DNA from: Elusimicrobiota bacterium
Lineage (GTDB): Bacteria > Elusimicrobiota > Elusimicrobia > UBA1565 > UBA9628
Assembly (NCBI GenBank): GCA_016218575.1
Contig: JACRDN010000005.1
Coordinates: 1 to 64,000, forward strand
Length of the DNA: 64,000 bases
Direction of reading: 5' to 3'
In this document: one piece after another, positions 49,348 through 57,897 of the stretch
How the letters are laid out: the number at the start of each line of letters is the position of its first letter
Numbering within the stretch: the stretch's first letter is position 1
Made by a program: the position numbers and the translations under genes
Notes under the pieces: model-generated
What the model was told of the DNA's origin: nothing
The model's input: only the letters and a program-made list of their open reading frames with translations
Database searches by the model: none

Positions 49348-49478
49348 CAACTGCTGCCGCACGGGAGGCCTTGATTTATGGGGAATCCCCCCTTATCCTC
49401 TATTTCGACATGGAGAAAGCCTCCCCCAGGATCGCGGTGGACGACGCAACGACCGCGTGCAGCGGGAATGCGCGGCAA

Positions 49479-50186
49479 ATGAGGCTGATTGCGGCGGCCG
49501 CCGCGTTTTTAACGCTGGCCGGCCGAGCCTGGTGCGCGGATTGCCCAAGGGGCAGCACGCGCATGGTCACTGACGATCCCCTGGAGCCGTTTCGCTGCGT
49601 GCCTGACGAGGAGCTGCCGGACGCAGGGAAGCCCTATTTTCCTAAGATGGGTTCTTTCAAGTCCCTTCCCGTCGCGCCAAAGCTCAGGCCTTCCTTGGAG
49701 CCTAGCGTTGCCGCGCCGCTTCCGGCGCGAACCAAGAGGGCTGGAGCGCATGCCGCGCAGGCCCTCAAGTACGAGCGCTACCAGATTTCCGAGCTTTCGT
49801 TCGATTATCCGCGGGGCTGGTCCATGACCGATGGTTGGGACGACGAGCTGCCGACCCTCTACATCCAGCATGACACCGGGGCCCAGGGCAGGCAAGTGGT
49901 TCTGACCATTTCCAGGGCGCAGATCGGACAGTACGGGTACCTGGACCTGGACACGGCCGTGGCCAAGGAGAGGCGCTGGCAGAAGGCCCGAGAGGGCCAG
50001 CGGGGGCGGGCGGCCGGACTTCCCGCGCGATTCACGATGGTGTCAGGGCAAAGCCGCTCCGCCTATCTCGACGCCGGCGAAGGGCGCTATTACATCTTGA
50101 GCTACAGCGCTCCGGAAGCGCTTTTCGAGACTTTCGAGCCTGCTTTTGATAGGATGTTAAGTAGCTTGCGCTTGGCGCGGCCTTAA
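49479..50186 (+). CDS. Secreted protein of unknown function (PsbP/DUF1795-like region)
   Basis: About 235 residues from MRLIAAAAAFLTLAG, a signal peptide cleaved near WCADC. A Pro-rich linker (60-100) is followed by YQISELSFDYPRGWSMTDGW and later FETFEPAFDRMLSSLRL, a pattern like PsbP/DUF1795 proteins; this likeness is tentative. An in-frame ATG at 49410 would make a longer N-terminus without a clean signal. The stop TAA is also the target duplication of the element starting at 50187. Confidence 0.65.
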   Translation: MRLIAAAAAFLTLAGRAWCADCPRGSTRMVTDDPLEPFRCVPDEELPDAGKPYFPKMGSFKSLPVAPKLRPSLEPSVAAPLPARTKRAGAHAAQALKYERYQISELSFDYPRGWSMTDGWDDELPTLYIQHDTGAQGRQVVLTISRAQIGQYGYLDLDTAVAKERRWQKAREGQRGRAAGLPARFTMVSGQSRSAYLDAGEGRYYILSYSAPEALFETFEPAFDRMLSSLRLARP

Positions 50187-50456
50187 GGGCTCGCAATGAA
50201 ATAATATGACCAACTGGCCGGGGCAATTTTGGAGCGAGACGAGGATCGAGGAGCGAGCATACCCGCAGCGGTATGTGAGTGACGAGAGACGAAGTCGCAG
50301 CCCAAAAGTGCCCCGACCCTTCGGGCAGGCCCATCTTCGGCCGATTTCTTCGTTGCTCGCCGGTCACAATGCGCTGCGGCATTGCTCCCTTCTCGCGCCT
50401 CGAAATCAACTCGAATCTGGGCCTGCCAGTTGGGCATATTATTTCATTGCGAGCCC
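50187..50456 (+). repeat. About 270-bp double-lobed inverted-repeat element, copy 1 (MITE-like)
   Basis: The terminal inverted repeats are 50186-50218 and 50425-50457 (32 of 33 paired). Inside are two lobes. The left (50219-50315) is closed by CGGGGCA/TGCCCCG with an inner hairpin CATACC/GGTATG (50258-50275). The right (50327-50424) is closed by AGGCCCA/TGGGCCT with inner CAATGC/GCATTG (50367-50384). TAA on both sides fits a 3-bp target duplication. A copy in opposite orientation is at 56553-56823. Short open frames across it are not conserved as proteins. Confidence 0.85.
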
Positions 50457-50462
50457 TAACTC

Positions 50463-51233
50463 ATGCTGATCAAGGAGCAGAAAGAGCAGGTCCGAGTATT
50501 GCGCCTGGCCAATCCCCCCTCCAACAATCTGACCCTCTCCCTGCTGGAAACCCTGAGGGAAGAACTCTCGCAAGCCCGGGAGGACTCCTCCGTGCGCTGT
50601 CTGGTCCTGGCCTCTGCCTACCCGCGCTATTTCTCCACGGGGCTCGATCCCCAGGAGATCAAGGCCCTGCCCGAAGGGCGCCGCTTCGAGCCCTTCCTGA
50701 GCCTTCTGGAGGCTTACCGCCAAATCTTGGAATTTCCGAAGCCGACCTTGGCCGTTCTGTCGGGCAGCGCCGTCCTGGGCGGCTGGATATTGGCCATGGC
50801 CTGCGATTTTCGCTTGATGGGCCGGGAGCATGGCAAGATATCCCTCTCCGAGATTCGTTTCGGGCTTTCTCCCACCGCTTGTCTCATCCAGCGCATGCGC
50901 GAGATATCCTCGAGCCCGTTCCTGGTCAAGGAGATGGTGCTTAAGGGCAAGGCCTTGAGGGCGGAGCAGGCCCTCGAGGGGAATTTCGTGGACGCGCTGG
51001 CTCCGGGCGAGACGCTTGACGCGCAGGCCCTTTCCGAGGCCAGGCGCCTGGCCTCGGCCCCGCTGCCGGCCTACCTTTCCGTCAAGAAGGCCCTGCAGGG
51101 CCCGTCGGCGCCCGGATTTGCCGCCCTCTGGCAGGACAGCTTGCGAGATTTTGAGCGCATCGTCGAAACCGCCGAGGCCAGGGAAGGGATCGCGGCCATG
51201 GTGGAGAAGCGCCGGCCGCGCTGGCAGGCCTGA
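50463..51233 (+). CDS. Enoyl-CoA hydratase/isomerase family protein
   Basis: 256 residues of the crotonase fold. VRVLRLANPPSNNLTLSLLETL is the N-terminal strand-helix and LAVLSGSAVLGGWILAMACDFRLMG the CoA/oxyanion region; the usual catalytic Glu pair is not evident, so the exact reaction is open. The ATG lies only six bases after the 270-bp element, so that element may supply the promoter or leader. Four bases separate it from the SDR gene. Confidence 0.88.
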   Translation: MLIKEQKEQVRVLRLANPPSNNLTLSLLETLREELSQAREDSSVRCLVLASAYPRYFSTGLDPQEIKALPEGRRFEPFLSLLEAYRQILEFPKPTLAVLSGSAVLGGWILAMACDFRLMGREHGKISLSEIRFGLSPTACLIQRMREISSSPFLVKEMVLKGKALRAEQALEGNFVDALAPGETLDAQALSEARRLASAPLPAYLSVKKALQGPSAPGFAALWQDSLRDFERIVETAEAREGIAAMVEKRRPRWQA

Positions 51234-51236
51234 GGG

Positions 51237-52061
51237 ATGTTCGTCAAGGACTTGCTCAAAGGCCGGGCCGCGGTGGTCACCGGCGCCGGTACCGGCATAG
51301 GCAAGGTGATAGCCGAGGAGCTTGCGGCCCACGGCTGCAAGGTGGCCTTGGTCGGGCGCCAAGCCTCGAGGCTAGAAGCCGCGGCTCAGGAGCTTGGCGC
51401 CAAGGGCCTCTCGGCCATGGCCTGTCCGGCGGACGTGAGCGAGCCAGGCCAGGTCAAGGACCTCTTTGCGCGCGTTGAATCTCAATGGGGCGGGGTGGAC
51501 ATCCTCGTCAATGGCGCCGCCGCCAACTTCATCCGTCCGAGCGAGGCGCTCACCAGCGTGCGCTGGCGCAAGGTAATCGACATCGTCCTCAATGGGACCT
51601 TCAATTGCAGCATGGAGGCCGGCAAGAGGATGCTCAAGCAAGGCTCGGGGAGCATCATAAATCTTGTGGCCTCCTACGCCTGGCTCGGCGCCCCAGGTTT
51701 GGCCCCCTCGGCCAGCGCCAAGGCCGGGGTGGTGGCTCTCACCCGCAGCCTGGGGGTGGAGTGGGCGGCCAGGGGCGTGCGGGTAAACGCCGTTTGCCCA
51801 GGCTACATCGACACCCCGCAGTCGCGCGAGCGCCTCTGGCCTCAGGAATGGGTTCGCAAGAAGCTTTTGGACAAGATTCCGGCGCACCGCTTCGGCCGTG
51901 AGAAGGACGTCTCCGACCTCGTGCTTTTTCTGGTCTCCCCCATGGCCGGCTACATACAGGGAGAGGTGATCGTGGTGGACGGCGGGGAGTCCTTGGGGCG
52001 CGGAGCCATGGCTTTCGCGGAGGACTTGAAAAGCCTGCGCCGACCAGGGGCCGCAGAGTGA
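51237..52061 (+). CDS. SDR oxidoreductase, 2,4-dienoyl-CoA reductase-like
   Basis: 274 residues. Rossmann motif VVTGAGTGIGKVIAEEL; LVNGAAANFI replaces the usual NNAG, as in dienoyl-CoA reductases; serine in INLVASYAW; YxxxK is degenerate (GLAPSASAKAG). Dienoyl-CoA reductases also lack the classical tyrosine. Next to an enoyl-CoA hydratase-like gene, so probably auxiliary beta-oxidation of unsaturated acyl-CoA. It overlaps DUF502 by four bases. Confidence 0.85.
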   Translation: MFVKDLLKGRAAVVTGAGTGIGKVIAEELAAHGCKVALVGRQASRLEAAAQELGAKGLSAMACPADVSEPGQVKDLFARVESQWGGVDILVNGAAANFIRPSEALTSVRWRKVIDIVLNGTFNCSMEAGKRMLKQGSGSIINLVASYAWLGAPGLAPSASAKAGVVALTRSLGVEWAARGVRVNAVCPGYIDTPQSRERLWPQEWVRKKLLDKIPAHRFGREKDVSDLVLFLVSPMAGYIQGEVIVVDGGESLGRGAMAFAEDLKSLRRPGAAE

Positions 52062-52666
52062 GCAAGGAGGCTTCCCTCACCAAGCGCTTTAAACGCACGT
52101 TGCTCAGCGGCATATTCGTGGTGGGGCCGTTCAGCCTGACCTTCATGATTCTGGCTTGGTTTGTTTCCACGGTGGACAAGTTCCTGGCCCCCGTAGCGGG
52201 GCTGTTCGGCAGGAACCTGCCTGGGATTGGCCTCGTGGTCGCCCTCCTCATAGTGCTGGGGCTGGGGGCTCTGGCCAATAACATCATGGGCCAGCACCTC
52301 CTGGAGTATTTCGAGGAGCTTCTCCTCAAGATCCCCGGGTTCAATTGGGTCTACAGCACCATCAAGCAGATGACAGAGGTGTTTTCCCCAGCGAACAAAA
52401 ACGCGTTCAGGCGTGTGGTCCTGGTTGAATACCCGCGGCCAGCTGTTTATTCGTTGGGGTTCGTGACGCGCGATCTGGAAATCGAGCGTGGCGGGGAATC
52501 GCGTAATTTCGTCTGCGTCTATGTCCCCACCAATCACATGTACATCGGCGACATCGTCTTGGTCCCAGAAAGCCAGGTGTTCTCCACCCCGCTCACCCTC
52601 CAGGAAGGCATCCAGTGCGCGGTTTCCGCGGGGGCCTCGCTTCCTACCCTGTTTAAGTTCCAGTGA
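52058..52666 (+). CDS. DUF502 membrane protein
   Basis: 202 residues from a GTG start. Two membrane segments (about 13-35, LLSGIFVVGPFSLTFMILAW, and 52-75) then the DUF502 core with GFNWVYSTIKQMTEVF and VYVPTNHMYIGDIVLVPES. The family is widespread in bacteria and plants (LCV-like proteins) and of unknown biochemical role. Last gene of its operon, followed by a terminator. Confidence 0.92.
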   Translation: MSKEASLTKRFKRTLLSGIFVVGPFSLTFMILAWFVSTVDKFLAPVAGLFGRNLPGIGLVVALLIVLGLGALANNIMGQHLLEYFEELLLKIPGFNWVYSTIKQMTEVFSPANKNAFRRVVLVEYPRPAVYSLGFVTRDLEIERGGESRNFVCVYVPTNHMYIGDIVLVPESQVFSTPLTLQEGIQCAVSAGASLPTLFKFQ

Positions 52667-52683
52667 AGCCGTCTATAATGGAG

Positions 52684-52710
52684 GAAAGGCCCGCCTTCGG
52701 CGGGCCTTTC
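52684..52710 (+). terminator. Terminator of the enoyl-CoA/SDR/DUF502 operon
   Basis: A perfect 12-bp stem GAAAGGCCCGCC/GGCGGGCCTTTC with a TTC loop, 18 bases after the DUF502 stop. The right arm contains TTT; it also ends the converging YtxH gene region. Confidence 0.75.
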
Positions 52711-52731
52711 GCCGTCAAACTGCCGTTTGAG

Positions 52732-53022
52732 TCAAGCGGTTAAGGATTCATTCTCGGGCTGTCTCCTGTCCCCGCTGGCCTCGTAATAAGCTTTCTTGCC
52801 CGCGCGCAGGGCGGCGGCCACCTGATCCCTTTTGGTCGGCAGCTCCTCTTTAAGCTTGCTCATAAACTCCGAGCTTTTCTCCCTCTTGTTCTTGATCCAT
52901 TCTCCCAGCTCTTGTCGGGTCTCCTTCCCGGCCTTGGGAGCGAAAAGAACCCCCGCCGCCGCGCCAGCAATGGTTCCTAAAACAAAATAGGCCATGTGGG
53001 TCTTAATCTCCTCTCTCGACAT
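52732..53022 (-). CDS. YtxH-domain protein
   Basis: 96 residues. YFVLGTIAGAAAGVLFAPKAG is the glycine-zipper membrane segment of the YtxH family and is followed by a charged helix (KETRQELGEWIKNKREK). In Firmicutes the family is stress-linked. Start MSREEIKTHMA after AAGGAGG. It shares a divergent promoter with the operon starting at 53208. Confidence 0.9.
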   Translation of the reverse strand: MSREEIKTHMAYFVLGTIAGAAAGVLFAPKAGKETRQELGEWIKNKREKSSEFMSKLKEELPTKRDQVAAALRAGKKAYYEASGDRRQPENESLTA

Positions 53023-53103
53023 TTTTCTTGCCTCCTTGACTGGTTATCTCGGCCGCTTTTCAGCGATAAAATCTCCGGCAGGATATTGGAATTCCCAACT
53101 CCC

Positions 53104-53165
53104 TTTATAACATGGGAGCTTGTCGCTGTCAAGGTCTTGACAGAATCGGTCTTTGTCCCTATCCT
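53104..53165. promoter_or_regulatory. Back-to-back divergent promoters with a palindromic -35 core
   Basis: Minus strand: TTGACA (53132-53127), 17 bp, TATAAA (53109-53104), serving the YtxH gene. Plus strand: TTGACA (53137-53142), 17 bp, TATCCT (53160-53165), serving the gene at 53208. The two -35 boxes form one perfect palindrome TGTCAAGGTCTTGACA (53127-53142), so one bound regulator could act on both. Leaders of about 75 and 36 nt hold normal ribosome sites. Confidence 0.7.
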
Positions 53166-53207
53166 CATAGCGCTTGAGGACGACAACCCTTGCGACTAGG
53201 AGAGGAA

Positions 53208-54152
53208 ATGACTAAAATAAATTATCAGGGAGCAGGGCGAACGGAGGGCTCCGTGAAATCAGAGGCCGCCACCCAGAAGCTTGAGATCGCCACCATCGCC
53301 GATGGCTTGATGAAAGTCAAGCTCAGCCAAGGCAAGGGATTTTTCAAGGTCGCCGTCGAGAAGAAGCATGGAGAGGCCAACTCCATCTATCTCGAGATCA
53401 ACGGCTCGAGAAAATTCGAGATAGGCAACGATTGCGATACCTGCCATTTCTGGTTTAAATGCCTGCATGAGCCTCGCCTGCCTGCGCAGAAGAAGGTGGC
53501 CAACCTTCCCAAGACCATTCAGATGCCGCGGCCCCTCGATGAGGCCATGGTCCAGGAGCTCTCCCCCCTGCTAGAGCTTTTAGAGAAGGGAGAGTACTCC
53601 ATTCTTGAAACGACCATCAACCTCGCCGGTCCCTACGACGGCGATGACGAGAGCTCCTATTTCTTCAACAGTGAATTCATGGAGCTTTGGGACATCGCAG
53701 ACCCCAAGGAGGAGGGCCTGCTCTCCGGATGGGAGCACTATGAGTCCCAGCGCCCCAGGATTTTCCGCCATCCCGAGGCCAGCATCATGGAGAAGGAGTT
53801 CGATTTCGTGATTCCCTTGGTTCCCCGCGCCTCTCTTAAGGAAGAGTATGTGAAGCTTTATCAGTCCATGATCGCCAATGGGGACCGCCCTCGCATCCTT
53901 CTCTTGGGGATGTACCAGCGCGGCATCCCCGAGGCGGTCAAGCGCGGCCAGAACAAGAATCTCCACTCCTTCATGGCGGGCTTCGTTCTGGACGGCCACC
54001 ATAAGCTTGCCGCTTACCGTCGGGCAGGGATTCCGGCCCGCTTCCTGATCCTGATGTCTCACAAGGCGAGCAAGTATTTCCTGCTCAAGGAGGAAGGGGC
54101 CTCCGCGCGCCAGAAGTTCGAGGAGCGCCTCGCCTCTCTTGGGTCGGCTTAG
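53208..54152 (+). CDS. Uncharacterised protein with a cysteine cluster and a ParB-like motif
   Basis: 314 residues. AGGAG precedes the ATG at 53208. No signal peptide. A cysteine cluster NDCDTCHFWFKC (about 82-93) could bind metal. Near the C-terminus FVLDGHHKLAAYRRAGIPA resembles the DGHHRxxAxxxAG motif of ParB/Srx-fold proteins, which bind or hydrolyse nucleotides. I do not recognise the family. It overlaps the PHP gene by 14 bp and heads the operon leading to uppP. Confidence 0.75.
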   Translation: MTKINYQGAGRTEGSVKSEAATQKLEIATIADGLMKVKLSQGKGFFKVAVEKKHGEANSIYLEINGSRKFEIGNDCDTCHFWFKCLHEPRLPAQKKVANLPKTIQMPRPLDEAMVQELSPLLELLEKGEYSILETTINLAGPYDGDDESSYFFNSEFMELWDIADPKEEGLLSGWEHYESQRPRIFRHPEASIMEKEFDFVIPLVPRASLKEEYVKLYQSMIANGDRPRILLLGMYQRGIPEAVKRGQNKNLHSFMAGFVLDGHHKLAAYRRAGIPARFLILMSHKASKYFLLKEEGASARQKFEERLASLGSA

Positions 54153-55350
54153 CCGGAGATATCTTCCGCCATTGGCGGGTTCCTTGGCCCTGGGCGCCGC
54201 CCATTTCCATCCGCGGCCGGCCCTTGTCGATGCCGCGACCGGCGGGTCCGCGCCGTGGGCGCATCTCGAGTTTCCCCTTTCTCATCTGTTCCTGACTCCC
54301 TTGGCCGGCTGGGCTGACCTCATCACCTGCAACAACCTGCGCCAGCATATAGCACTTCTGATGTTTTTCTTGTTTCTCTACGGCCCTTGGCGGTTCTTCG
54401 TCCTGGGGCACGGAAGGCGCGAGTGGTTCGCGGCGCGAGAAGTTTTCAAATCATTTTTCATTTACTTCGCCTTGGTGGCTCTTTTCCTATCGGGCGTGAT
54501 ATTCTTCCCGCGGACTCCCGCTCGCCTGGTCTTGGACGACCCCTCTTTGGTGGCGGTTGATTTCCACTCCCACAGCTCGATCTCGTGGGACGGTCTCAAA
54601 TCCTTCACTCCCGAGAAAAACGCCTCGTGGCACGAGGCCGCGGGCTTTGACGCCTCATTCATCACGGACCACAACATTTGGGACCAGTCCAAGGATCCCC
54701 GACCCTCCAAATCGCACTTGAGCCTGCGGGGCGAGGAGTTGAGCCTCTTCCAATCCCACATTGTGCTGCTGGGGCCGCGTTCCGCGGTGGATCCCGCCCT
54801 CTACGGCGGCGGCGTCGACGGGGTGCGCAGGCTTTTAGGCGAGGCCAAGCGCCAGGGCTGGGTCACGATCATGAGCCTGCCTGAATATTGGAAATACCCC
54901 TGGGGAGAGGCCTTGGCGGAGATGCCCTCCTGGGGGCTTTCGGGCTTCGAGATCGTCAACGCTACGCCCAAGGGCCTGGAGTTTCCCGAGAGCGAGCGAG
55001 GACGCGTTTTGGAGCTGTGCCGCCGCTTCAACGTATTCGCGGCGGGCGCGACCGACATTCACGGCTATGGGCGGGCCGCCTGCGTTTGGAACCTGATGCG
55101 CCTTCCGGGTTGGCGCGCGGCTTCGGCGGACGAGCGGCGCCGCATGCTTTTAGACGCGTTGTCTCGGGGAGGCTACGGGGCCGTCCGAGTCGTGCGAAGG
55201 AACAGGCCCGCGGAGGCCTCTGGATGGGCGATATGGCTTGATGCCCCGCGGGCTCTTTGGGCGATGTTTTGCGCCTTCACAGGGGTTCAAAAAATTATTA
55301 CCTTTGTATGGCTGTGGCTTTGGCCCCTCTTGGGGCTCATAATCATATGA
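54139..55350 (+). CDS. Membrane-anchored PHP-domain phosphoesterase-like protein
   Basis: 403 residues from a TTG start. The first 130 hold hydrophobic segments (about 70-85 HIALLMFFLFLYG and 105-122 FIYFALVALFLSGVIFF), then a PHP domain: VDFHSHSSISWDG, FITDHNIW and the late GATDIHGYGR give the His/Asp metal ligands. A last hydrophobic helix (IITFVWLWLWPLLGLIII) ends it. PHP domains hydrolyse phosphoesters. With uppP two genes on, a lipid-phosphate substrate is a reasonable guess, no more. Confidence 0.78.
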   Translation: MGRLSRRYLPPLAGSLALGAAHFHPRPALVDAATGGSAPWAHLEFPLSHLFLTPLAGWADLITCNNLRQHIALLMFFLFLYGPWRFFVLGHGRREWFAAREVFKSFFIYFALVALFLSGVIFFPRTPARLVLDDPSLVAVDFHSHSSISWDGLKSFTPEKNASWHEAAGFDASFITDHNIWDQSKDPRPSKSHLSLRGEELSLFQSHIVLLGPRSAVDPALYGGGVDGVRRLLGEAKRQGWVTIMSLPEYWKYPWGEALAEMPSWGLSGFEIVNATPKGLEFPESERGRVLELCRRFNVFAAGATDIHGYGRAACVWNLMRLPGWRAASADERRRMLLDALSRGGYGAVRVVRRNRPAEASGWAIWLDAPRALWAMFCAFTGVQKIITFVWLWLWPLLGLIII

Positions 55351-55778
55351 TCGTCAGGTGCCCTCATTGCGCGGCGCAGGTGGACGAGGAGGCGGCTCAT
55401 TGCCCCTCCTGCAGCTGGGATTTCGAGAATAAGAGGAAGGCGGGGGAGCCTCCTCCGGTTAAGCCGCCTGCCGCGGTGCAGCCCATCAAGCCGGAAGCAC
55501 CTCCTGAGCGGCTTGAGGAATTCGGTTCCTCGGCGCCGGGCGACGCCGCCGAGCGATTTAAGAAATCCGCGGCGAGGCCCGAGGTGGTCTTGGCTCCGTC
55601 CTCGGAAAAGGCGGAGGCCCGGGCCGAGAGTCGCCGCAACTACTGGAAGATTTACGCGGCCACGCTCGCGATTCTGACGGCCTTGAGCCTAGCCGTTTTC
55701 TACTACACGACGATCTCCGAAACGCCGGTGTCCGGCCCCGCCGCCGGCTCCAATCCCTTTAAAACGGCCGACAGATAG
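55347..55778 (+). CDS. Zinc-ribbon, single-pass membrane protein
   Basis: 143 residues. N-terminal zinc ribbon CPHCAAQVDEEAAHCPSCSWDF (two CxxC pairs), a Pro-rich linker, and a hydrophobic helix (about 105-127, IYAATLAILTALSLAVFYY). ATG at 55347 overlaps the PHP gene stop by four bases. Function unknown; probably a tail-anchored partner of the PHP protein or UppP. Confidence 0.78.
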   Translation: MIVRCPHCAAQVDEEAAHCPSCSWDFENKRKAGEPPPVKPPAAVQPIKPEAPPERLEEFGSSAPGDAAERFKKSAARPEVVLAPSSEKAEARAESRRNYWKIYAATLAILTALSLAVFYYTTISETPVSGPAAGSNPFKTADR

Positions 55779-55779
55779 A

Positions 55780-56553
55780 ATGAGCTACTGGCAAGCCTTG
55801 GTCTACGGAATGCTCCAGGGCGCGACGGAATTTTTGCCAGTGTCTAGCTCGGCGCACCTGGCCCTCCTGCCCTGGCTGCTCGGTTGGCGCGACCCGGGTC
55901 TTAGCTTTGACGTGGCCCTGCACATGGGGACTTTGGCGGCACTAATGGCATATTTCAGGCACGATTGGGTTTGCATGGCCTCCGGGGTCTTCTCCAGGGA
56001 TGGCGGCGTGGCCAGGAGGAATTTCGTCCTCCTGGTATTGGCCTCGATTCCCGCGGCCTTGGCCGGAGTCTTCCTCGAAGCTCAGGCAGAGGTCGCCTTC
56101 CGCCGACCCCAAGCCATGGCCTCGACCTTGATCCTTTTCGCTCTTCTCATGGAAGGGGCCGACCGCATGGGCGCCAAGAAAGGCTCTCTCAATGAGATGA
56201 CGCTGCGCCAAGCCGTCGGCATGGGCCTGGCGCAAGCCCTGGCCGTGGTGCCGGGGGTCTCCCGCTCGGGCGCGACCTTGACCGCCGGGCTGTTCCTGGG
56301 CTTAACCCCCGCGGCCGCGGCCCGCTTTTCCTTTCTGATGGCGGCTCCCATCATTTTCGGGGCCGGCGTCTTCAAGCTGAGGCATTTCTCCGCCGGCGAT
56401 ATGAGCGGCCCATTTTTCTTGTCGGTGGGCGTGTCCGCGCTCATGGGCTGGGCCTGCATTGGATTCTTCCTCAATCAACTGCCGCGTTGGCGCCTGCGCC
56501 CCTATGTGGTCTACAGAGTCCTGTTGGGGCTCTTGATCCTGGGCTTAACTTAG
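55780..56553 (+). CDS. uppP: Undecaprenyl-diphosphatase
   Basis: 257 residues, BacA family; recycles undecaprenyl pyrophosphate to the phosphate for wall and O-antigen synthesis. GATEFLPVSSSAHLALLPWLLG and VVPGVSRSGATLTAGLFLGL are the two conserved motifs with the catalytic E/S/R residues. Eight hydrophobic segments. One base after the zinc-ribbon gene. Its TAG stop is at the left edge of the second 270-bp element. Confidence 0.96.
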   Translation: MSYWQALVYGMLQGATEFLPVSSSAHLALLPWLLGWRDPGLSFDVALHMGTLAALMAYFRHDWVCMASGVFSRDGGVARRNFVLLVLASIPAALAGVFLEAQAEVAFRRPQAMASTLILFALLMEGADRMGAKKGSLNEMTLRQAVGMGLAQALAVVPGVSRSGATLTAGLFLGLTPAAAARFSFLMAAPIIFGAGVFKLRHFSAGDMSGPFFLSVGVSALMGWACIGFFLNQLPRWRLRPYVVYRVLLGLLILGLT

Positions 56554-56823
56554 GGGTCGCGTCATAATAATATGAGCCATTTGGAGGCTCGGATTTGAGG
56601 CAAGTTCGAGGCGCGAGGAGGGAGCATAGCGGTAGCTATGTGACCGACGAGCAACGATGAAGTTGGCCAAAGACGAGCCTCCCCCGATGGGGGCCAGGGC
56701 ACTATTGGGCTGCGACTTCGTCTCTCGTCGCTCACATACCGCTGCGGGTATGCTCGCTCCTCCATCCTCGTCTCGCTCCAACATCGCCCTGGCAAATGGC
56801 TCATATTATTATGACGCGACCCC
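56553..56823 (-). repeat. About 270-bp double-lobed inverted-repeat element, copy 2 (inverted)
   Basis: Perfect 32-bp terminal arms (56552-56583 and 56793-56824). The left lobe is closed by GGAGGCTCG/CGAGCCTCC (56583-56682) with inner CATAGC/GCTATG; the right by GCCAGGGC/GCCCTGGC (56693-56793) with inner CATACC/GGTATG. TTA flanks both ends. A core of about 65 nt matches copy 1 on the opposite strand with two or three differences. It fills the whole gap between the stops of uppP and the amidase. Confidence 0.85.
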
Positions 56824-57897
56824 TTAATTCCAGGCCTTGGGAGGGGCCGCCAGTCCGGGCAGGGCTTGTTGGCGCCAGGCCCCCCCCCTCTTGCCGGAGG
56901 ATTTCAACTTCTCGCGGATGTTCTTGAGCAGGGGATAGGCTTTATCGCCGGGGCAATCCGTGGCGAGGTAATCCCGGTGGCCGAGGAGATTGGCGGGCTC
57001 GATGCGGCGGTTGATGTCCAGAAGATAGCGGGCCAGGTCCAGGATGGCCTTGAGCTGGGCGGGAGAGACCGCGTCATTTTTTGGAGCGTGGTAGGTCCCG
57101 AGCAGGGCGATTCCGATGTTTCCCAGATTGTCGTCCTCCACATGGGCGCCGATGGCGTCCTGGGGCCGTCCCTGGAGGATGCGGCCCTCGGAATCTATCA
57201 AGAAGTGATAGCCGATGTCTTTCCAGCCCCGCCCGAACTGGTGGAAATCCTGGATGAAGCGCGCTTCCCTGAAGGTGTCCTCCTCGGCGCGGGTTTGGAT
57301 GCCGGCGGTATGGTGCAAAGTGATGCGCCAGGGAACATGCGGCTCGTACGCGCCCGAGGGCGCGCGCGCGCCCCATTCCGAGCGCAAATAAATGCGGGGC
57401 CTCACGGCGCGCCGCCGAGCAGGCCGGGAAAGCTTCTTGCCCGGCCCCGCGGGCGGCTCCGTCCCGGCGATGAAGACCTCGACGCCGAAAATCTCAAGGC
57501 GTTCGAAGGACTGTCCTTGGCCGACTGCGCGGATACGTAGGGGGCCCGGCCCCAGTTGCATAGGGGCCTTGGCCCAGAAGCGGCCGTCCGGGAAGCGCCT
57601 GAGGTCGGCTTTGACCCATGCAGACCAGATTCCTTCGGCGCGCCGGGAGACCTCGAACGTCGGCGCGGGCTCGGAGCAAATTCCATGGAATAAAACGGTG
57701 TTCCATGGCCGAGGGATCGGATCGCTTTCTGGGGTTTCGTAGATTACCTTCCCCGGAACTGAGGGGCCGAGGCTTTTGCCGAGCGGGACACGAGCCCCGC
57801 CACCGAAGTTCACCGTGTCGCCCAAATCCAGGGCCAGGCAAGGCAGGGAAAGGCAAACGGCAGCCGTTAAGCTAGCGGCGGCAGATTTCTTCCACAT
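56824..57897 (-). CDS. Secreted N-acetylmuramoyl-L-alanine amidase, PGRP type
   Basis: 357 residues with a signal peptide (about 1-23, AAVCLSLPCLA). After a beta-rich N-terminal region, an Amidase_2/PGRP domain (about 165-330) has zinc ligands in WRITLHHTAG and LLGHRDYLATDCPG, and the tyrosine region in DIGYHFLID. It cuts the stem peptide from peptidoglycan. It overlaps pepP by 26 bp and follows it on the minus strand. Confidence 0.92.
   Translation of the reverse strand: MWKKSAAASLTAAVCLSLPCLALDLGDTVNFGGGARVPLGKSLGPSVPGKVIYETPESDPIPRPWNTVLFHGICSEPAPTFEVSRRAEGIWSAWVKADLRRFPDGRFWAKAPMQLGPGPLRIRAVGQGQSFERLEIFGVEVFIAGTEPPAGPGKKLSRPARRRAVRPRIYLRSEWGARAPSGAYEPHVPWRITLHHTAGIQTRAEEDTFREARFIQDFHQFGRGWKDIGYHFLIDSEGRILQGRPQDAIGAHVEDDNLGNIGIALLGTYHAPKNDAVSPAQLKAILDLARYLLDINRRIEPANLLGHRDYLATDCPGDKAYPLLKNIREKLKSSGKRGGAWRQQALPGLAAPPKAWN

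Follow-up and report, generated by a model that had tools for sequence, protein, structure and literature searches.

Miniature inverted-repeat transposable elements (MITEs) of bacteria, such as ERIC, NEMIS/Correia, RUP, Nezha, BrickBuilt, and those of Porphyromonas, are non-coding sequences of 70–320 bp that carry terminal inverted repeats (TIRs), generate a short target duplication, and occur in many intergenic copies. The Porphyromonas MITEs described include ones with IS5-type ends (PMC4596501). Tourist-like MITEs, PIF-Harbinger elements, and the IS5 group have a 3-bp TNA target (TTA or TAA) and G-rich TIR starts. REP (repetitive extragenic palindromic) and BIME (bacterial interspersed mosaic element) palindromes, together with the RAYT (REP-associated tyrosine transposase) genes, form imperfect hairpins, often two opposed ones, in the intergenic regions of many phyla (PMC3733652). 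Here we analyzed a window of 64,000 nucleotides from an Elusimicrobiota bacterium (assembly GCA_016218575.1, contig JACRDN010000005.1, positions 1 to 64,000 of the forward strand), which contains two elements resembling all of these systems in the features listed. However, the MITEs named above are bound to a family or genus and defined by their ends, whereas here one internal covarying hairpin with tandem G.A steps, hereafter the lobe, is common to different ends and different phyla. We regard the elements, with good confidence, as non-autonomous MITE-type DNA transposons with a conserved structured module.

Two insertions in the window and their family in the host genome

Copy 1 (50187..50456, plus strand) and copy 2 (56553..56823, minus strand) lie exactly where the original prediction, made from the window sequence, had placed them. 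Both are complete two-lobed elements with inverted repeat ends and represent TIR subfamilies A and B, respectively. Their TIRs occupy the outer 36–37 nt with 94%–95% complementarity, and the list of open reading frames (ORFs) contains no gene inside either copy. Full copies ~95%–98% identical to copy 1, for which flanks were compared, are present elsewhere in the genome, and a second copy 95% identical to copy 2 is located at C6:37000.

Each insertion is flanked by a 3-bp TNA target duplication, TAA for copy 1 (50184..50186 and 50457..50459) and TTA for copy 2 (56550..56552 and 56824..56826). Both are at stop codons and leave the neighboring genes intact. The ORF at 49371-50186 ends with the left TAA of copy 1 as its stop codon. 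Before insertion, the target of copy 2 was a TTAA in which the stops of two convergent ORFs overlapped; the first G of the element, together with the left duplication, converts one stop into the TAG of ORF 55780-56553, while the right duplication provides the TAA stop of the minus-strand ORF 57897-56824, so both flanking genes remain closed. In 5 of the 12 complete host-genome copies tested, the duplication lay at the stop of a frame open for at least 200 codons. The TNA target thus provides harmless landing sites.

The host genome, a 2.8-Mb draft of 23 contigs, contains ~35 dispersed element places with unrelated flanks, and several contigs terminate within element copies. At least five TIR subfamilies were distinguished, with TIR starts GGGCTCGCAATG (A), GGGGTCGCGTC (B), GGCCCTGTCAAG (C), TGTAGTGTCCC (D), and TGCTCCGACCG (E). 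Perfect TNA duplications flank 14 of the 15 complete copies of subfamilies A–C, and the target of D and E is CTAG. We take these TNA and CTAG duplications and the G-rich ends to fit the IS5/PIF superfamily, the targets of A–C, and CTAG in D and E, presumably being of the IS5 type. Subfamilies A, B, and C are 55%–62% identical in the outer TIR and 82%–85% identical in the lobes. Lobe 2, lobe 1, or both have been lost in some copies, and lobe 2 is inverted in one, as expected for palindromes rearranging via their arms.

Some copies carry additional palindromes. The same ~60-bp palindromic insert (CCCCTCTCCAAGAATACTGGAAGGGG...GGAAAGGGACGGGG) was found in the inter-lobe linker at C20:177154-177452 and C23:158606-158906 and is itself a hairpin element, nested within another; the latter copy also has lobe 2 inverted. 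In a subfamily C copy at C19:277440-277767, lobe 2 is interrupted by two inserted perfect hairpins (CCGTCCGG...CCGGACGG and GACCTGGCGCG...CGCGCCAGGTC). At C22:40090-40135, a perfect 46-bp palindrome consists of two subfamily C TIRs alone, both lobes being missing.

Structure and covariation of the lobe

The two lobes of each two-lobed copy are paralogous and oppositely oriented, with one on either strand. The covariance model R1 was built from 45 lobes with flanks no more than 75% identical, including both lobes of copy 2 and neither lobe of copy 1. Its matches in the window were exactly the four lobes, with E-values of 1e-15 to 1e-29. Together with the closing stems, whose boundaries were taken from fold comparison, lobe 1 of copy 1 spans 50218..50315 with the G.A steps on the plus strand (match 50225-50314, plus strand, 64.1 bits, E 1.2e-20), and lobe 2 spans 50326..50425 with the G.A steps on the minus strand (match 50328-50417, minus strand, 49.8 bits, E 1.9e-15). 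The corresponding lobes of copy 2 are at 56693..56793 on the minus strand (lobe 1; match 56785-56696, minus strand, 65.2 bits, E 4.7e-21) and at 56583..56682 on the plus strand (lobe 2; match 56592-56679, plus strand, 87.5 bits, E 3.5e-29). A lobe core pattern, derived from these same elements, had two exact matches in the window and none in 100 shuffles.

The lobe is ~90 nt long, with the apical stem CATANC/GNTATG. In 78 non-redundant lobes, the register starts at the loop with seven pairs, among them a near-invariant G.U. Next come a tandem G.A, then, after two pairs, another tandem G.A and, after a single pair, a weaker third G.A; two more pairs lead to the free outer stems. The first two tandem G.A sets were retained at 78%–99%, while the pairs around them vary; the Watson-Crick pairs between the G.A steps covary strongly, and the outer stems change freely yet keep re-pairing. 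Conservation in the core is partly by construction, since the search pattern fixed part of it, but the second G.A set and all positions further out were left free, as were two pairs, the apical N-N' and the S-S. Twenty-two of the 78 lobes fall outside the starting pattern, and most of these retain pairing.

Run over 99 loci, R1 yielded 143 lobes, training sequences included. In the 133 distinct rows, which were aligned to R1 and hence lean toward the model structure, paired cells made up 90.7% versus 72.2% in shuffles and 15%–41% in controls with slid pairing, and double-change cells numbered 288 versus 87.5 in shuffles. A MAFFT alignment of the training sequences agrees (90.1% paired versus 75.5%). 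The original prediction had proposed from the two window copies that compensatory change conserves base pairing, and this holds far beyond them: further copies were found, and their arms have not lost complementarity. The stems on which it relied were differently related than supposed. CGGGGCA/TGCCCCG belongs to lobe 1 of copy 1 and GGAGGCTCG/CGAGCCTCC to lobe 2 of copy 2, and the CATACC stem belongs to lobe 1 and CATAGC to lobe 2 of copy 2, so paralogues had been set against each other. Homologous stems covary too, as in lobe 2, where both the apical stem (CAATGC/GCATTG in copy 1, CATAGC/GCTATG in copy 2) and the closing stem (AGGCCCA/TGGGCCT and AGGCTCG/CGAGCCT) differ in a compensatory manner. 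Closing stems are well paired in both lobes of each copy.

Folded as single strands, the window copies have energies far below those of shuffles (z -10.7 to -12.7). The lowest-energy fold is a single long rod of -150 to -162 kcal/mol as RNA, and the bilobed fold lies above it by ~10–11 kcal/mol as RNA and by 6–14 kcal/mol with DNA parameters. The double-lobed three-way junction, originally suggested as the shared fold, is therefore an alternative to a more stable rod, although the local nature of the lobes could still allow it to form before the rod as the strand is transcribed or extruded. Moreover, conservation attaches to the single lobe rather than to the junction, as many elements of other phyla contain just one, and copies with deleted lobes occur.

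Stem complementarity could also have a simpler origin in ordinary MITEs, namely palindrome correction by template switching or gene conversion combined with transposase selection on the TIRs, the hairpin itself being functionless. The elements are clearly mobile and numerous, and palindromes do rearrange here, as seen in the precise lobe losses, the TIR–TIR palindromes, and the inverted lobe. However, correction would erase mismatches, whereas both inner tandem G.A steps persist while the intervening pairs change. Selection on the TIRs is insufficient as well, because it stops short of the lobe region. In addition, the lobes are far more alike than the TIRs and recur in unrelated TIRs and in an array devoid of TIRs. 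We consider this explanation improbable. The original view of a structured RNA or DNA junction, and not just transposase-binding ends, is thus upheld as to conserved pairing, but given the TIRs, the TNA duplications, and the ~35 places occupied, the structure is a module within a transposable element and not an alternative to one.

Distribution of the lobe across bacteria

At E ≤ 0.001, the covariance model search of related genomes, recommended together with the original prediction, identified lobes in 65 of 295 Elusimicrobiota genomes. Hosts beyond this phylum belong to Bacteroidota, Gammaproteobacteria, Desulfobacterota, Myxococcota, and Gemmatimonadota, with up to 115 lobes per genome. Counted as lobes rather than elements, there were 115 in Endozoicomonas, 53 in Methylomonas, 51 in Prevotellamassilia timonensis, 50 in a Muribaculaceae isolate, 24 in Aliidiomarina, 20 in a Myxococcales metagenome-assembled genome (MAG), 4–6 in Desulfobulbaceae/Desulfocapsaceae, and 4 in a Gemmatimonadetes MAG; host names are those of the public records, and binning errors are possible for MAGs. 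The hairpin lobe is conserved in at least six bacterial phyla.

The pattern GAGCATANC..GNTATGTRASCGA occurred in at least 119 stretches of contigs representing one genome per species, many of them within elements of 150–320 bp with TIRs. A simple TIR test was passed by 106 of 135 lobe places in many hosts. The TIRs are strongly divergent between hosts (GAGGCTGTTTAAAA, AGGTGGGTTCTATTAATT, AGGTAACGCGCATTAAATAA, and others), and the TIRs enclosing the lobe differ greatly in sequence and in target (TNA, TA, and CTAG). Most P. timonensis copies have only TA as a flank, unlike Tourist-like, PIF-Harbinger, and IS5-group elements. Aliidiomarina indica has an array of four tandem lobes with a period of ~130 bp and a repeated spacer between them, but no TIRs (L136, 2650-3170). 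The guaA 3' end is the site of this array, whose G.A strand runs opposite to the gene and which contains two different outer stems, each able to pair.

MITEs are usually regarded as empty shells defined by their ends, but here the ends vary and the internal hairpin is constant in at least six phyla. Since the ends change while the hairpin stays, something probably reads the hairpin. It is quite conceivable, though less than probable, that the lobe represents a structural module in its own right, very widespread, formed by single-stranded DNA or RNA, and marked by tandem G.A steps. Such a module would reside on several unrelated types of transposon ends and be recognized by a conserved factor, and MITEs would then have a third functional component in addition to TIRs and target. 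Rfam had no match for the elements or the lobe at gathering or permissive thresholds, in line with the original statement that no named family was known, and no description of the element or the hairpin was found in the open-licence literature. The elements are MITEs, a known kind, while the shared cross-phylum G.A-ladder hairpin appears to be undescribed in the sources searched. RNA and mobile-element databases would gain the module as a new entry, and the covariance model, together with hosts represented by isolate genomes with 24–51 lobe places (P. timonensis, the Muribaculaceae isolate, and A. indica), makes it testable what allows such elements to spread.

The lobe core had no match in plasmids or E. 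coli genomes. Two pattern matches in viral contigs (L221 and L222) were treated as chance, L222 having no model match and L221 being judged by the pattern alone. A match in Woesearchaeota (L101) was not supported by the model, and four others (L108, L166, L176, and L186) were judged by eye to be chance pattern matches. A record named Paenibacillus sp. NALB_7961_12 (L115) contains elements of the Bacteroidales type and may therefore be misnamed or misbinned.

Role of the lobe and mobilization of the elements

The G.A steps read T.C on the opposite strand, and the G.A strand was therefore taken as the structured one. Its paired positions contain 21 G.T versus 8 A.C combinations, an excess expected if this strand pairs with itself. 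Covariation fits structured RNA as well as single-stranded DNA and does not separate them. If the lobe acts as RNA, then upon read-through from neighboring genes the hairpin would alter termination, antitermination, or the stability and end processing of the mRNA, so that insertions do less harm, and opposite lobes would serve either transcribed strand. The deep covariation, the conserved G.A steps, the near-invariant G.U pair, and the G.T excess are consistent with such a role, 3' read-through is likely given that several insertions are at stop codons, and for other bacterial MITEs, transcription and effects on mRNA have been described (PMC3733652). On the contrary, G.U pairs are rare at covarying positions (~2%), the A. 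indica array has its G.A strand opposite to guaA, and Rfam had no match. One-lobed elements showed no orientation bias to neighboring genes (16/32 upstream and 21/32 downstream) in samples that are small and based on simple ORF calls; bias would be more likely if the role were purely transcript-bound, which is therefore disfavored. We consider the RNA role rather unlikely.

The preferred reading is that the lobe is a cis-acting single-stranded DNA hairpin aiding persistence or movement of the element. The module, one or two lobes, would act single-stranded on the G.A-bearing strand and bind a widespread factor. Two-lobed elements, having one G.A lobe on either strand, would present one such hairpin per strand. 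A structure that is kept while the stem sequence drifts, with only one strand being of importance, is also a feature of integron attC sites and further functional hairpins of single-stranded DNA; this is a resemblance only, and neither an integrase nor attC boxes were identified in the lobe elements. Taken alone, a DNA-level role of the module is possible but somewhat doubtful.

Movement of the elements would be performed in trans by a DDE transposase, probably of the IS5/PIF type, which was not found in the assembled genome. For this class the target type alone fits, and a transposase with matching ends was not found in the host genome; therefore, we describe the elements as working like IS5/PIF-type ones and do not file them there. 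None of the PF01609 and PF13586 genes had matching TIRs, the PF01609 comparison covering loci up to L242.

Alternatively, the lobes could be hairpins of the REP kind that a RAYT (Y1, HUH) transposase moves in single-stranded form and that came to lie within MITEs. REPs are hairpins, often in opposed pairs, and their movement is attributed to RAYTs, some of which have long TIRs (PMC3733652). However, REPs are 20–40 bp long, carry GTAG or CGTC tags, and have no TIRs, whereas the ~90-nt lobes have no conserved tag of either kind and reside inside TIRs with target duplications, the TNA duplications being of the DDE-enzyme type. RAYT (PF01797) genes were present in 14 of 15 lobe-bearing genomes, but also in 12 of 16 lobe-free relatives, and thus show no association with lobes; the TIRs around these RAYT genes bear no relation to lobe-element TIRs. 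In one relative (G001), both Y1 transposase genes (RAYT-like, PF01797) are directly downstream of a lobe element (lobes at 1972-2161 of L295 and 1268-1434 of L306), an arrangement unlikely to arise by chance if the two were independent, but the other genomes searched lacked it. RAYT as the mobilizer was rejected, and this origin of the lobes seems very improbable.

Several points weigh against a transposon with a single-stranded DNA module, besides the small orientation samples. No autonomous partner was found, as PF01609 and PF13586 had no match in the draft host genome, and a search by TIR pattern for TIR pairs of IS length revealed only MITE-length pairs. In a likewise small sample of one-lobed elements in P. 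timonensis, local GC skew indicated no replication-strand bias (14/24).

Two other transposase loci were observed. In the host genome, a RAYT-like gene at C23:71782-72105 (L289, 946-2348) lies within 41-nt inverted repeats (GGGTGCCAGTCATTTACATTCTTAACTTACTTAACTTCCGC), forming a TIRtron (PMC3733652). In P. timonensis (G057, C17:126593-128359), a DDE transposase gene is followed by three partial copies of its C-terminal domain region, ~415 bp apart.

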